From Synechococcus sp. WH 8109 (GTDB lineage: Bacteria; Cyanobacteriota; Cyanobacteriia; PCC-6307; Cyanobiaceae): a DNA stretch of 64,000 bases. Below, in pieces: positions 6,430 through 11,305 of the stretch; positions within the stretch are counted from its first letter, which is position 1, and every line of letters begins with the position of its first letter. The translations under genes were made by a program, and so were the position numbers. The stretch lies in NCBI RefSeq assembly GCF_000161795.2, contig NZ_CP006882.1:620001-684000 (forward strand), read 5' to 3'. The notes under the pieces were generated by a model that worked only from the letters and a program-made list of their open reading frames with translations, had not been told where the DNA came from and did no database searches.

Positions 6430-7602
6430 ATGGCCAGCTTGCTCGATCAGCTTTCACAAATGACCGTGGTCGTCGCCGACACGGGTGATCTGGAGGCGAT
6501 CCGCAAGTTCACCCCTCGGGATGCGACCACCAACCCGTCGTTGATCCTGGCTGCTGCACAGATTCCGGCCTACCAGAGCCTGATTGATGAGGCTTTGCGG
6601 TCATCGCGCAAGTTGATGGGCAGCGACGCAGCGGTGGAAGACGTGGTGCGGGAAGCTCTCGATGAGATCAGTGTGATCTTCGGTAAGGAGATTCTCAAGA
6701 TTGTTCCCCGTCGTGTGTCAACGGAGGTGGATGCTCGTTTGAGTTTTGACACCGACGCCACGATTGAAAAAGGGCGCAAGCTGATTCGTCTGTACAACGA
6801 TGCCGGCATCAGCAACGATCGCGTTCTGATCAAAATTGCCTCCACCTGGGAAGGCATCAAAGCCGCCGAGGTGCTGGAGAAAGAGGGGATTCACTGCAAC
6901 CTCACCCTCCTGTTTGGTTTCGGTCAGGCCGTTGCCTGTGCTGAAGCCGGCGTCACTCTGATCTCCCCTTTCGTGGGGCGCATCCTGGATTGGTACAAGG
7001 CTGAAACCGGTCGCGACTCTTACCCCGGACCTCAGGACCCGGGTGTGATTTCGGTGACCAAGATCTTCAACTACTACAAGACCCACGGCTACGGCACGGA
7101 GGTGATGGGGGCGAGCTTCCGCAACATCGATGAGATCACGGAGTTGGCCGGTTGCGATCTGCTCACGATTTCACCGAAGTTGTTGGATCAGCTCCGTGAG
7201 ACTGAAGCTGTGCTGACCCAGAAATTGGATGCCACCCATCCCACCGATGGCGAAGCCAAGATCCACGTCGATCGCGCCACCTTTGATGCACAGATGCAGG
7301 ACGATCGGATGGCCAGCGACAAACTCACTGAGGGTATTAAGGGCTTCAGCAAGGCCATTGAAACGCTGGAGCATCAACTGGCCCATCGTTTGGCTGAACT
7401 GGAGGGTGGATCCGCCTTCCGCCACGCCGTTTCTGAGATCTTCATGCTCAACGACATGAACGGCGATGGCTCGATCACCCGTGATGAATGGCTCGGCAGT
7501 GATGCCATCTTTGATGCCCTCGATCAGGACCACGACGGTCTGATCTCTCAGGAGGACGTGCGCCAAGGCTTTGGCGCAGCTCTGACTCTGACCTCTGTCT
7601 GA
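6430..7602 (+). CDS. tal: transaldolase with C-terminal EF-hand pair
   Basis: Transaldolase moves a three-carbon unit between sugar phosphates (sedoheptulose-7-P + GAP to erythrose-4-P + fructose-6-P) in the pentose phosphate pathway. The class I catalytic segment [10 protein letters not shown] places the Schiff-base Lys at about residue 135, and the N-terminal DATTNPSLI motif is typical. At 390 residues it is some 55-70 longer than a standard enzyme. The extra C-terminus holds two canonical EF-hand loops: [12 protein letters not shown] at 342-353 and [12 protein letters not shown] at 365-376, with Asp/Asn at positions 1, 3 and 5 and an acid at 12. Calcium binding is thus likely; an effect on activity is inferred. 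A separate short gene follows 14 bases downstream. Confidence 0.93.
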
Positions 7603-8037: not shown

Positions 8038-8277
8038 TCATGGATTCGGCTCCGCTGCCGACCGGTAGACGGCGGGCACGAGCACCAGAAACATCAGCCA
8101 CCAGGCCAGTACGCCTATGGCCAGGGGAAGGCTGATCCAGAGCCGGTGCAGCAGCGTCCAGGACCCGCTGACCATCAGCACTCCCGTGCAGATGATGGAC
8201 CAGGGCTGGCACCACCAGGGTTTCAGCGACCAGAACGGTGGCTGCTCCGGCGGTTTAGCGGAGGGCGTCGAGTTCAC
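8038..8277 (-). CDS. small two-helix membrane protein (DUF6737-like)
   Basis: About 79 residues from the GTG at 8277. The segment PFWSLKPWWCQPWSI followed by two hydrophobic stretches resembles a short cyanobacterial membrane family that I recall as DUF6737. It begins inside the end of the PPC-glutaredoxin gene (overlap of 23 bases), pointing to co-expression. A longer start at 8316 is possible but adds residues unlike the family. Function unknown. Confidence 0.6.
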   Translation of the reverse strand: MNSTPSAKPPEQPPFWSLKPWWCQPWSIICTGVLMVSGSWTLLHRLWISLPLAIGVLAWWLMFLVLVPAVYRSAAEPNP

Positions 8278-8863
8278 CAGCTGCGTGCATGGCGGCGAGA
8301 TCGTCGTAGCCACCAATCACTGATCCGTCGATGAACACCTGGGGGAAGGTGGTCATCTCACTGCGCTGCTGCACAGCCTGGAAGGCTGCGTCGTCGTTGA
8401 CGGTGGTGACGTTGTGGGGCAGATCCAGGGTTCTCAGGATGCGCAGGGCGCGGCTGCACCAGGGGCATCCCGGCAGCACGGCGATCTCGATCCTTGGTGC
8501 TGCTGCTGCGGTCTGACGCGCGGGGCGGCCTTCGCGTTGCTCCAGCACGCCAACCAGGAGATCGACGCCCTTCTGCACGATCGTGCCGGGCTCAAGGTGG
8601 CCTCCCCACACCTGACAGGCCCCATCCGAGAGGCTCAGGTGCAGGTGCACGCCCTCAGGGGAAAAGGTTCCATTGAGGGTGATCACCTCAAGATCGCCCT
8701 CCAGCACGGTTGGCTCCGCCTGGCCGGGGCACTGGAACGACGCCTTGGTCAGGTTGCCGACAACGCCGAGAACAAAGCCGCTGATGCCGTCCCGCTGAGC
8801 CAGTTCTTCGAGGCTGAGGCGTAGATCGCTGCCGGGAGCAAGCTTCAGCGGCAGAGGTTGCAT
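8255..8863 (-). CDS. PPC (DUF296) domain fused to glutaredoxin
   Basis: A 202-residue protein with two domains. Residues 1-108 or so match the PPC/DUF296 fold: LAPGSDLRLSLEELA, then TVLEGDLEVITLNGTFS and GVHLHLSLSD with GGHLEPG. Residues 124-202 form a glutaredoxin: IEIAVLPGCPWCSRA with a CPWC dithiol site, the cis-Pro segment TTFPQVFIDG, and the GGYDDL glutathione-binding turn. Glutaredoxins reduce disulfides with glutathione or carry Fe-S clusters. Free-standing PPC proteins are seen in bacteria and fused to AT-hooks in plants; pairing with glutaredoxin suggests redox control of the PPC function (inference). It faces the RHH gene across an 85-base divergent promoter region. Confidence 0.85.
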   Translation of the reverse strand: MQPLPLKLAPGSDLRLSLEELAQRDGISGFVLGVVGNLTKASFQCPGQAEPTVLEGDLEVITLNGTFSPEGVHLHLSLSDGACQVWGGHLEPGTIVQKGVDLLVGVLEQREGRPARQTAAAAPRIEIAVLPGCPWCSRALRILRTLDLPHNVTTVNDDAAFQAVQQRSEMTTFPQVFIDGSVIGGYDDLAAMHAAGELDALR

Positions 8864-9204: not shown

Positions 9205-10278
9205 TCAATTCAGTAGCCGGTTGGCAATGGCTGCCACCTTTCCCTGCCGTTGCAATTTGAGGATGGAGACGTCCATGGGCGTGCGCATTGGGCTGTCCGG
9301 TTTGATCACAAAGCCGTAGGTCTCTTCCGACAGGGTGAAGGAGGCGAGGCGCAGGGCGAGGTCGGGATTGTTTTTGAGGTGGTAGCGAATGGCCGGTCGA
9401 TCAAAGATCAAGGCATCGACCTGCTGATTAACCAACAGTTGAACTGCGCTCCTGAGGTTAGTGGCGCTAACGATCCGCATGTCGCCGCGTTGGGCCAGCT
9501 CCATGCCACTGGTGCCCTCCACCACAGCAACTCGACGTCCGTTCAGTTGCTCAGGAGCGCTGATGGCCGTTTCTGTTGCACCGGAGAGGAACAGAGTGAA
9601 CGCCGAGGCCAGGCTGGCTGTGAGGGACGACACTGCGATCAGGGAGATCACCATCCAGGCACCGGTGATGCCCCGGCCGGTTCGTGTGATCGGAGCCTTG
9701 TCGCCGTAGCCCACCGTGGTCAAGGTCACCAGGGCGAACCACATGCCGCTGCTGATGCCCGGTAGCCAGTTCTGCGGAAACTGCTCACTGTTGCGGTTGC
9801 GTTCCGCCAGCCAGATCAGGCTGCCCACCACCAGCAGAACGCTGATCAGCACAAGCACCGAGGAGATCACCGCCCAGCCGAAGAACACCTGAACGCGGCT
9901 TAGGATTGACGGTGGGCGCATCGGCAGCAACACCCCAGATTTGCCCAGGTAGTAGGGCTGGGTGAAGTCAATGCCCGGGATGGCCAGCCGGCGTGAGGTG
10001 ATGCTGATCGGGCCCACCAGCACGTCGATCTCACCGTCATCCACCGCCTCAATCCCGGCTTTGGGGGATGGCTGCTCAACCAGTTCGTAGCTGAGATTGT
10101 TGTCTTCGGCGACGCGGCGCCAAATGTTGAGGCTGATGCCGCTGAGCTGATCGCCGTTCTTGATCACGAAGGGGGCCGATCCACTGATCCCCACCTTCAG
10201 TTGATTGGCCTGCAGGGGCAGTGTGCTGCCGAAGCAGGCGAGCGCGAGGACGACGGACCAGCGCTGGACCCTTTGCAT
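9205..10278 (-). CDS. GluR0-type ligand-gated potassium channel
   Basis: A 357-residue channel of the prokaryotic ionotropic glutamate receptor type. A signal peptide (about 1-25) is followed by the S1 half of a periplasmic amino-acid-binding domain (27-115), a membrane helix, a pore loop with the K+ selectivity filter TTVGYGD at 187-193, a second helix with SSLTASLASAF at 217-227 (compare SYTANLAAF of animal receptors), and the S2 half of the binding domain. Known relatives such as Synechocystis GluR0 open to K+ on glutamate binding. I chose the ATG at 10278 because it starts a clean signal peptide; the longer frame upstream reads as non-coding and overlaps other ORFs. It shares one base with the stop of a 26-codon ORF. 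Confidence 0.88.
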   Translation of the reverse strand: MQRVQRWSVVLALACFGSTLPLQANQLKVGISGSAPFVIKNGDQLSGISLNIWRRVAEDNNLSYELVEQPSPKAGIEAVDDGEIDVLVGPISITSRRLAIPGIDFTQPYYLGKSGVLLPMRPPSILSRVQVFFGWAVISSVLVLISVLLVVGSLIWLAERNRNSEQFPQNWLPGISSGMWFALVTLTTVGYGDKAPITRTGRGITGAWMVISLIAVSSLTASLASAFTLFLSGATETAISAPEQLNGRRVAVVEGTSGMELAQRGDMRIVSATNLRSAVQLLVNQQVDALIFDRPAIRYHLKNNPDLALRLASFTLSEETYGFVIKPDSPMRTPMDVSILKLQRQGKVAAIANRLLN

Positions 10279-10358
10279 CAGCGGTGTTCCAGACGACGCA
10301 CGATCACGGCCATTGCCGCCAGGGAACCCGCCAGCGCTATAAGCAGGGCAATGGTCAT
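10278..10358 (-). CDS. possible 26-residue membrane peptide coupled to the GluR0 gene
   Basis: ATG at 10358 opens a 26-codon frame, mainly one hydrophobic helix (TIALLIALAGSLAAMAVIV) ending in the basic tail RRLEHR. Its TGA overlaps the ATG of the channel gene by one base (TGATG), and its start lies 6 bases after the stop of the upstream 74-residue ORF, so all three look like one transcript. No Shine-Dalgarno sequence is evident. It could be a real small subunit or only a coupling leader. Confidence 0.45.
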   Translation of the reverse strand: MTIALLIALAGSLAAMAVIVRRLEHR

Positions 10359-10364
10359 GGAGGG

Positions 10365-10589
10365 TCAGGTCAGCGGTGCGTCCAGGTTGGCATCCCTCAC
10401 CCCGAGCAGCCAGTCGGCCACTTCCATTCTCAGGGCGTAGGCACATTCGAAACGGCCTTCGTCTTCCAGCACGCTCAGGCGTTGTTCGAGCGTGTGCAGG
10501 GTTGAACTAGCGACCTGGTGGAGGCCATTGCTCCGCGCCACAATGAGTCTTCTGGGGCCCCCTGAAGCTTGCGGCACGACGTCAGCCAT
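10365..10589 (-). CDS. small hypothetical protein
   Basis: A 74-residue frame. The C-terminal half (LEQRLSVLEDEGRFECAYALRMEVADWLL) is charged, helical and protein-like. The N-terminal 25 residues are less convincing and the true start may be internal. It precedes the 26-codon ORF and the channel gene on the minus strand and is divergent from the phosphoesterase gene. No recognised domain. Confidence 0.5.
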   Translation of the reverse strand: MADVVPQASGGPRRLIVARSNGLHQVASSTLHTLEQRLSVLEDEGRFECAYALRMEVADWLLGVRDANLDAPLT

Positions 10590-10630: not shown

Positions 10631-11305
10631 ATGACCGTTTTGGAGTGGTCCTGGGGCGACAGCCCACTCACGTTCCTGCCCCAGCGAGCGCTGTGGCGGC
10701 TTGAGGGGCGGGAGTTGTTTGTTGCCGATCTGCATCTCGGCAAGGCCGAGGTGTTCCAGGCCCATGGCATCCCCATTCCCAGCGATGGGGATCAAGGAAC
10801 CCTGAATCCGCTGCTGGAGCTCTGCCATGCCTGGTCACCTCAGCGCTTGTTTTTGATGGGTGATCTCGTGCATGCCCGGATCGGCATCACCGCTCCCCTG
10901 CGCGAAACCCTGCTGGCGCTGCCCGATCTCTGTGGTTGCCCGGTGGTGCTGATCGGTGGCAACCACGACCAGGACAGCTGGATTGAAGGCTTGCCCCAGC
11001 AGCCTTCTCAACGTCTGGGCAATCTCTGGTTGAGCCACATGCCCGAACGGGTGCCGGAGCCGGGGTTGTTGAACGTGTGCGGTCACCTGCACCCCACCAC
11101 CCGGATTCGCAGCCGTTCCGATCAGTTGCGTTTGCCCTGCTTCGCCTTTGATCCGGAGGGGCCGCGTCTGGTTATTCCTTCGTTCGGGCAGTTGACGGGA
11201 GGCCATGACTGCGGCGAGCGTTACCAGCAATGGCTGGTGGCCGAAGGCTCCATCGTTCCTTGGTTCGATACAAACCCCAACAACCGAGAGCGAAAGGTCG
11301 CGTGA
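10631..11305 (+). CDS. PdeM-like metallophosphoesterase
   Basis: A 224-residue calcineurin-like phosphoesterase. The metal-binding motifs appear in order: DLHLGK near residue 36, GDLVHAR near 78, GGNHDQD near 112, and then LSHMPE and GHLHP for the last histidines. The order, the DLHLGKAEVFQAHGIPIPS segment and the length match the family named for the ligase-associated DNA damage response nuclease PdeM, though no ligase or helicase partner is nearby, so a DNA-repair role is uncertain. Its end overlaps the next gene by four bases (GTGA). Confidence 0.8.
   Translation: MTVLEWSWGDSPLTFLPQRALWRLEGRELFVADLHLGKAEVFQAHGIPIPSDGDQGTLNPLLELCHAWSPQRLFLMGDLVHARIGITAPLRETLLALPDLCGCPVVLIGGNHDQDSWIEGLPQQPSQRLGNLWLSHMPERVPEPGLLNVCGHLHPTTRIRSRSDQLRLPCFAFDPEGPRLVIPSFGQLTGGHDCGERYQQWLVAEGSIVPWFDTNPNNRERKVA

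Follow-up and report, generated by a model that had tools for sequence, protein, structure and literature searches.

A probable GluR0-type ligand-gated K+ channel in Synechococcus sp. WH 8109, its ligand cleft and a conserved microprotein at its start

Background

Prokaryotic glutamate receptors carrying a K+ filter were designated Group 1 by Ger et al. (2010, PMC2950845), and the definition, as given in the accessible part of that paper, includes a conserved arginine in S1 and a conserved aspartate in S2 which hold the alpha groups of the ligand. Table 2 of the same paper contains two entries annotated as 'possible ligand gated channel (GIC family)' (NP_896860.1 and NP_894348.1) and one annotated as 'ionotropic glutamate receptor' (YP_376778.1), for which the accessible portion of the main text does not give the genus names Synechococcus or Prochlorococcus. 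A literature search, working mostly by title and covering few subscription journals, recognised only PMC2950845 and the review PMC8786288 as bearing on glutamate receptors of picocyanobacteria.

The closest described system is GluR0 (Slr1257) of Synechocystis sp. PCC 6803. According to the accessible text of a 2026 study (PMC13099474), it is located in the plasma membrane and mediates K+ uptake in E. coli LB2003, residues Gln127 and Lys354 take part in its dimer, and PhoA fusions place both its N and C halves in the periplasm in a reversed topology (some of the fusions were not statistically significant). GluR0 was also reported there to affect cell volume under KCl, seen as the shrinkage rate 70–150 ms after KCl shock, while deletion of gluR0 left growth in liquid medium with 250 mM KCl unchanged and gave better growth than wild type on KCl agar; its authors presented this as the first direct evidence that a prokaryotic glutamate receptor plays a physiological role (PMC13099474).

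The DNA analysed here, referred to as the window, comprises 64,000 nucleotides of Synechococcus sp. WH 8109 (assembly GCF_000161795.2, contig NZ_CP006882.1, forward-strand positions 620,001 to 684,000). A sequence-only reading of it had proposed a GluR0-type glutamate-gated K+ channel at 9205–10278, and had regarded its role in a cell with a small genome as unknown. The host genome has 2,111,515 bases (2.11 Mb) in one contig, with Synechococcus sp. as the nearest named relatives. As to the role, it is no longer a complete blank, an effect of Synechocystis GluR0 under KCl having been reported in the accessible text of PMC13099474.

Results

Channel gene and domain content

The open reading frame on the minus strand encodes 357 residues plus a stop, with exactly the coordinates proposed earlier (Table 1). 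An alternative in-frame start lies further upstream, at 10446; ATG 10278 was taken as the start because the TGA of a microprotein gene overlaps it and near relatives align from the same residue. Pfam scanning of the protein returned SBP_bac_3 (E = 9e-14), Ion_trans_2 (E = 4e-13) and Lig_chan (E = 2e-11), all above their cut-offs, with Lig_chan-Glu_bd falling under its own (20.5 vs 30 bits), and the NCBIfam scan gave sub-cut-off matches only, to GlnH, LAO, cystine-binding and K+ channel models. Among the best 60 of 367 matches in a PDB sequence search, the GluR0 (Slr1257) ligand core ranked first (1iit/1ii5, E = 9e-42); below it came the core of Nostoc GluR0, glutamine-binding proteins, and receptors of plants and animals. 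At the sequence level this match to a GluR0-type channel is far beyond chance. The split binding domain, the filter TTVGYGD and the segment SSLTASLASAF attributed to the gene in the earlier reading were all recovered, through the open reading frame, Pfam and inspection of residues 187–193 and 217–227.

Table 1. Features of the channel gene and its immediate upstream neighbours (window coordinates)
Feature	Coordinates	Strand	Basis or remark
gluR0-type channel CDS (probable), 357 aa + stop	9205..10278	-	ORF, Pfam, PDB search, structure model
Probable signal peptide, residues 1-23	10210..10278	-	basic start, hydrophobic core; only model segment below pLDDT 50
S1 half of ligand-binding domain, residues 24-121	9916..10209	-	GluR0 core alignment, model
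Arg97, predicted holder of ligand alpha-carboxylate	9988..9990	-	80/80 orthologue rows
M1 helix, residues 135-159	9802..9876	-	model
Pore helix and K+ filter, residues 171-193	9700..9768	-	sequence, conservation, model
Filter TTVGYGD, residues 187-193	9700-9720	-	sequence alignment
M2 helix, residues 199-233	9580..9684	-	sequence, model
Gate segment SSLTASLASAF, residues 217-227	9598-9630	-	sequence; inside M2
S2 half of ligand-binding domain, residues 240-357	9208..9561	-	PDB alignment, model
Gly255-Thr256-Ser257, GluA2 653-655 positions (ligand side chain and backbone)	9508..9516	-	alignment; Ser257 is Asp in a sister sub-clade
Asp293, predicted holder of ligand alpha-amino group	9400..9402	-	79/80 rows Asp, 1 Glu
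Tyr321, GluA2 732 position	9316..9318	-	Tyr in 77/80 rows
Microprotein, 26 residues, one helix; TGA overlaps channel ATG by one base	10278..10358	-	ORF comparison
74-aa ORF, upstream, same direction	10365..10589	-	no Pfam match; in near relatives, not all

Structure model

An AlphaFold2 model was built from a 10-row alignment of the WH 8109 protein and nine relatives taken from named records (mean pLDDT 84.7, pTM 0.66). Residues 1–23 were of low confidence, as expected of a signal peptide, after which the model runs through the S1 half-domain, M1 (135–159), a pore helix (171–186) with the filter, M2 (199–233) and the S2 half-domain. Pfam, PDB search and model alike therefore show a family-3 S1–S2 binding domain interrupted by a pair of membrane helices with a re-entrant loop. 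Foldseek placed 1ii5 first, and its rows 2–50 were AMPA receptors aligned over the binding domain and the pore together. With VIA-align, 1ii5 was again first (Z 32.0, rmsd 1.8 over 219 residues, 41% identity), with 2pyy (Nostoc GluR0) second at Z 29.5 and amino-acid-binding proteins of the glutamine and arginine types next at Z 26–29. The proposed GluR0-type identity thus agrees with the leading match in both sequence and structure searches (E 9e-42 and Z 32.0, respectively), although a fold match by itself is no proof of function.

Comparison with described receptors

Comparisons with GluR0 used its PDB core sequence together with the close relatives L131, L132 and L135, so that the pore of GluR0 itself lies outside them; within a Synechocystis-like genus (5 genomes), no GluR0 identical to that of PCC 6803 was found, the best S1 identity being 86%. 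The WH 8109 protein shares with Synechocystis GluR0 the binding-domain fold (Z 32.0), the Arg and Asp anchors and the letters at Gln127 and Lys354, as well as the K+ filter and domain order published in the accessible text of PMC13099474. Identity to the GluR0 core reaches 50% in S1 and 35% in S2. The two differ in length (357 residues as opposed to at least 397, judging from the PhoA fusion site S397 in the accessible part of PMC13099474), in the S2 loop (Gly-Thr-Ser in place of Asp-Thr-Thr) and in the GNPPF segment of GluR0, whose Asn is replaced by Ser.

The Nostoc punctiforme GluR0 core (2PYY) has the same binding-domain fold (Z 29.5) but only 25% identity over the domain. Animal AMPA receptors (GluA1–4) align over binding domain and pore together (Foldseek rows 2–50) and share the TAxLA gate core, but identity is 17–20% and the K+ filter is a feature of the WH 8109 protein; AMPA receptors possess an M4 helix and an N-terminal domain besides. 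The layout is that of Group 1 (PMC2950845, accessible part), with two helices and a K+ pore loop lying between S1 and S2 and with Arg and Asp conserved, although the WH 8109 protein itself was not identified in the accessible Group 1 list of that paper.

Conservation of filter, gate, anchors and dimer residues

Residues were counted over 80 distinct orthologue rows, the WH 8109 protein being left aside: 23 at ≥ 55% identity (host genus), 44 from the family's other genera (the named row L007 among them) and 13 from other cyanobacteria. Excluded were L045 and L046 (broken or partial), L136, the divergent L101–L110 and L008–L011, duplicates and rows below length limits. The sequence-only reading had set against itself, beforehand, a pocket incompatible with amino acids and a K+ filter that varied among close relatives. 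The filter TTVGYGD was instead found in all 80 rows (the excluded short row L046 reads TTVRYGD), as was the ligand-anchoring S1 arginine, and the S2 aspartate was present in 79 with Glu in the remaining one; Tyr occupied the GluA2-732 position in 77.

SYTANLAAF is the gate motif of animal glutamate receptors, and the likeness to it noted in the earlier reading held up: the TAxLA core is present in the WH 8109 protein and in 76/80 rows, with TAxIA in two and SSLIGGLASAF in two. Of the two dimer-site letters, both of which occur in the WH 8109 protein, Gln is present in 80/80 rows and Lys in only 15/80 (Pro in 49), so the Lys354 dimer contact does not seem to be general among the orthologues.

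Two divergent sets were also encountered. L101–L104, receptor-like proteins from other genera of the family, are 27–29% identical and have the ligand arginine and a TASLSA gate segment, with no K+ filter (LVGGADN is aligned there); L106–L110 make up the second divergent set.

Ligand pocket

In the GluA2-numbered ligand code (PMC12226733, accessible part), any one of Gly, Ser and Thr at position 653 goes with glutamate, together with Thr at 655 and Tyr at 732; the code was built for animal receptors and reaches a bacterial pocket only by extrapolation. The WH 8109 pocket reads Gly255 (653), Ser257 (655) and Tyr321 (732), from which we infer, by analogy, a glutamate-like pocket in which Ser in place of Thr at 655 would retain the hydroxyl. 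Modelling of the ligand domain, suggested earlier as a check, led to the GluR0 core as the best match, and the pocket letters, which are compatible with glutamate-type L-amino acids, predict a ligand of that type.

Across the 80 rows the 655 position was Ser or Thr in 74, Asp in five and Ala in one. The five Asp rows (L005, from Synechococcus sp. MU1642, and L027–L030) form one clade inside the host genus (100/100, in a tree that still included the trait columns), and all of them have His instead of Pro at residue 295. Eighteen fixed differences separate this clade from six close sister rows, WH 8109 included: 14 are in S2 and 4 at residues 110–126, with none in M1, the pore loop or M2. L029 is 96–100% identical to the WH 8109 protein over M1, pore and M2 and 61% identical in S2; for L025 and L029 taken together, S2 is 78% and 61% identical, respectively, and M1, pore loop and M2 are 92–100% identical. 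As Asp at the position of the glutamate side chain is expected to repel glutamate, an altered ligand is predicted in the Asp sub-clade from these residues.

Microprotein at the channel start

The one-base overlap between the microprotein gene and the channel start recurs in 10/23 genus orthologues. A same-strand microprotein within 1.14 kb upstream was found for 23/23 genus orthologues and for 26/44 of those in other genera, 16 of the 18 misses outside the genus having < 300 bases to check; one of 86 microprotein matches in the comparison was false, being a piece of the channel signal region. Thirteen distinct DNA versions all encode one identical protein; the variable sites number 2 at the first codon position, 0 at the second and 22 at the third, a pattern that argues strongly for coding status.

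Its occurrence is wider than that of the channel: at a lenient threshold (E ≤ 1) the microprotein was matched in 240/400 family genomes, detection being insensitive in streamlined genomes, compared with 68 carrying a near full-length channel. In a class-wide sample of 194 genomes (21 of the family and 173 others, judging by the order of the records), all 11 matches at E ≤ 0.01 came from this cyanobacterial family. The microprotein persists beside broken channels and in genomes with no channel, and is therefore not simply a part of the channel. No Pfam match was obtained for the WH 8109 version (a sister version matched IPTL-CTERM at E 2), nothing exceeded the NCBIfam cut-off (best 15.9 vs 29 bits, sister version), and the WH 8109 version had no PDB match. 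PMC5126843, in its accessible portion, deals with other small proteins.

Locus neighbourhood and host genome

A common gene order was seen at many loci of the genus: metallophosphoesterase, 74-aa ORF, microprotein, channel, ribbon-helix-helix protein and PCC-glutaredoxin fusion. It is largely kept in the three g34 loci that have wide flanks and hold a channel (L161, L165 and L166), the 74-aa ORF not being detected in all of them. The channel of G024 (L171) stands away from these neighbours, and the neighbours were absent from 3.3 kb around L133–L135, three relatives in the genus of the Synechocystis-like G475.

Several further observations concern the surroundings of the gene. The minus-strand protein at 8255–8863 is a PCC domain fused to a glutaredoxin domain, and in relatives it adjoins the channel locus, also where the channel is lacking. 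At 11230–11305 on the plus strand, the metallophosphoesterase ORF and the next ORF (501 aa) overlap by 76 bases, an overlap that recurs in relatives. The plus-strand protein at 6430–7602, which we take to be a transaldolase, has putative EF-hand loops at its C-terminus. Elsewhere, the host genome encodes a single TrkH-type transporter, two further Ion_trans_2 proteins and one more family-3 binding protein.

Selection, distribution and loss in relatives

Values of dN/dS between the WH 8109 gene and 13 orthologue rows (two of which repeat another) were 0.12–0.23, indicating that the gene is under selection. A distribution survey, as proposed in the earlier reading, was carried out over 400 genomes of the family, with E ≤ 1e-90 taken as near full-length and matches listed down to about E 1e-13, so that weaker remnants may have been missed. 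A near full-length orthologue was found in 68/400, among them G071 (those of G307 and G324 end at a contig edge and that of G337 is without a start). At least nine genomes carried broken or partial copies (G207, G343, G112, G097, G034, G162, G297, G261 and G279), and G182 had an additional channel remnant. In the remaining family genomes there was no orthologue among the matches listed, the weaker ones being divergent relatives or other proteins. Small-genome genera such as g17, g10 and g56, which we take to be Prochlorococcus, gave no near full-length match in the survey.

Within the host genus (34 genomes), 24 copies were intact and seven broken or partial, and three drafts of 58–79% completeness had no channel among the matches listed. 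The 19 genus genomes of ≥ 98% completeness comprised 15 intact and four broken (G112, G162, G207 and G261). All six broken copies fetched with wide flanks (L091–L096) were at the conserved locus: the frame is broken in G112 and G207, residues ~ 95–240 are missing in G162 and G279, and loss or decay is larger in G297 and G261. Sequencing error is unlikely to account for all of the breaks, since three of the genomes with a broken copy are assembled as one contig each. In G259 (L162) the locus was kept and contained no channel match. The gene is not essential in relatives where it is broken or gone, and the channel seems dispensable in some lineages. In L093 (G162), where the middle of the gene has been lost, a single 245-codon frame joins the S1 and S2 pieces.

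A phage origin of the gene was considered and rejected: tblastn against 50,697 phage records returned three weak matches, each spanning roughly a third of the protein with identity below 27%, and no orthologue.

Discussion

On the combined evidence of sequence, model and analogy, the protein is very probably a GluR0-type ligand-gated K+ channel. Membership of this class follows from a family-3 domain into which a K+-filter pore of two helices and a re-entrant loop is inserted, together with the conserved amino-acid anchor Arg97/Asp293; with S1 and S2 flanking two helices and the K+ loop, and with the Arg and Asp kept, its sequence has the features of the Group 1 definition.

That the protein serves an amino-acid ABC importer as its membrane-anchored substrate-binding component, and is no channel, is extremely improbable. 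The binding domain is indeed homologous to GlnH and LAO-type proteins, and a review of picocyanobacterial binding proteins (PMC8786288, accessible part) includes 1II5 and 2PYY, both of them GluR0 cores, among glutamate-binding proteins when dealing with nutrient uptake. Against this, a complete K+ pore lies within the binding domain and is its best-conserved part. Family-3 binding proteins of importers are encoded with a permease and an ATPase, and no ABC family, nor any other transport family, was matched by the six neighbouring ORFs scanned in Pfam (0/6). The genome also has its separate family-3 binding protein, beside which lies an ORF that presumably encodes an amino-acid ABC permease. 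It is likewise very unlikely that the gene is decaying and of no further importance in this host: four of the 19 most complete genus genomes are broken, all four at the conserved locus, but the gene is intact in WH 8109 and its nearest relatives and its dN/dS is 0.12–0.23.

Within the preferred reading as a ligand-gated K+ channel, the nature of the ligand deserves more hesitation. We entertain tentatively, at appreciable though less than even probability, that it is not glutamate but serine, glutamine or another small amino acid. The Ser that replaces Thr at 655, the faster divergence of the cleft compared with the pore and the Asp at 655 in one sister sub-clade point in this direction, as does the GluR0 structure paper, which, going by its title, reportedly describes complexes with both glutamate and serine. 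However, Arg97 and Asp293 match the glutamate pattern, as do the Gly at 653 and the Tyr at 732, and Ser at 655 still bears a hydroxyl. A further suggestion, that the microprotein is an auxiliary subunit produced together with the glutamate-gated K+ channel, is consistent with their overlap or same-strand adjacency in so many orthologues and with the single protein sequence maintained by 13 DNA versions; it is nevertheless unlikely, as the microprotein outlasts the channel (240/400 genomes at E ≤ 1 vs 68) and their adjacency is explicable by inherited gene order, other neighbours having been kept too. If true, the microprotein would parallel, in a bacterium, the small membrane proteins that accompany animal channels; because it outlives the channel, it would also have further partners.

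As a GluR0-type channel, the protein may operate as follows. By extension from GluR0 and animal receptors, the two halves of the ligand domain would fold in the periplasm and the subunits would pack as dimers of a tetramer, with the pore inserted in the membrane the reverse way round compared with KcsA. The trigger would be an L-amino acid (glutamate or another polar one like it) set free in the vicinity or upon osmotic shock. Its binding would close the periplasmic clamshell, and this closure would pull on the M2 gate and open the K+ pore. K+ concentration is higher inside the cell than in seawater, and K+ would flow outward unless the membrane were strongly negative, with an effect on potential and turgor. 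The channel may thus provide a fast passive path for K+, through which the cell would adapt its turgor and membrane potential to changes in K+, osmolarity or released amino acids, as Synechocystis GluR0 reportedly does.

The class of K+-filter glutamate receptors is already known, and we presume that it had been recorded in marine picocyanobacteria, taking the 2010 accessions NP_896860.1, NP_894348.1 and YP_376778.1 to be from marine Synechococcus and Prochlorococcus. New here are the Asp sub-clade, the breakage of the gene in relatives and the microprotein at the channel start, limited to the family among 194 genomes of the class. K+-filter channels of this kind are at risk of being tallied as glutamate-uptake binding proteins. 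Prokaryotic K+-selective glutamate receptors serve as a reference point for the origin of animal and plant receptors, and the present gene is useful mainly because its close relatives vary at one sensor position or have lost the channel. Marine picocyanobacteria in this sense offer a natural experiment, with near-identical pores, a diverging cleft, one charge change at the position of the ligand side chain and loss in sister genomes.
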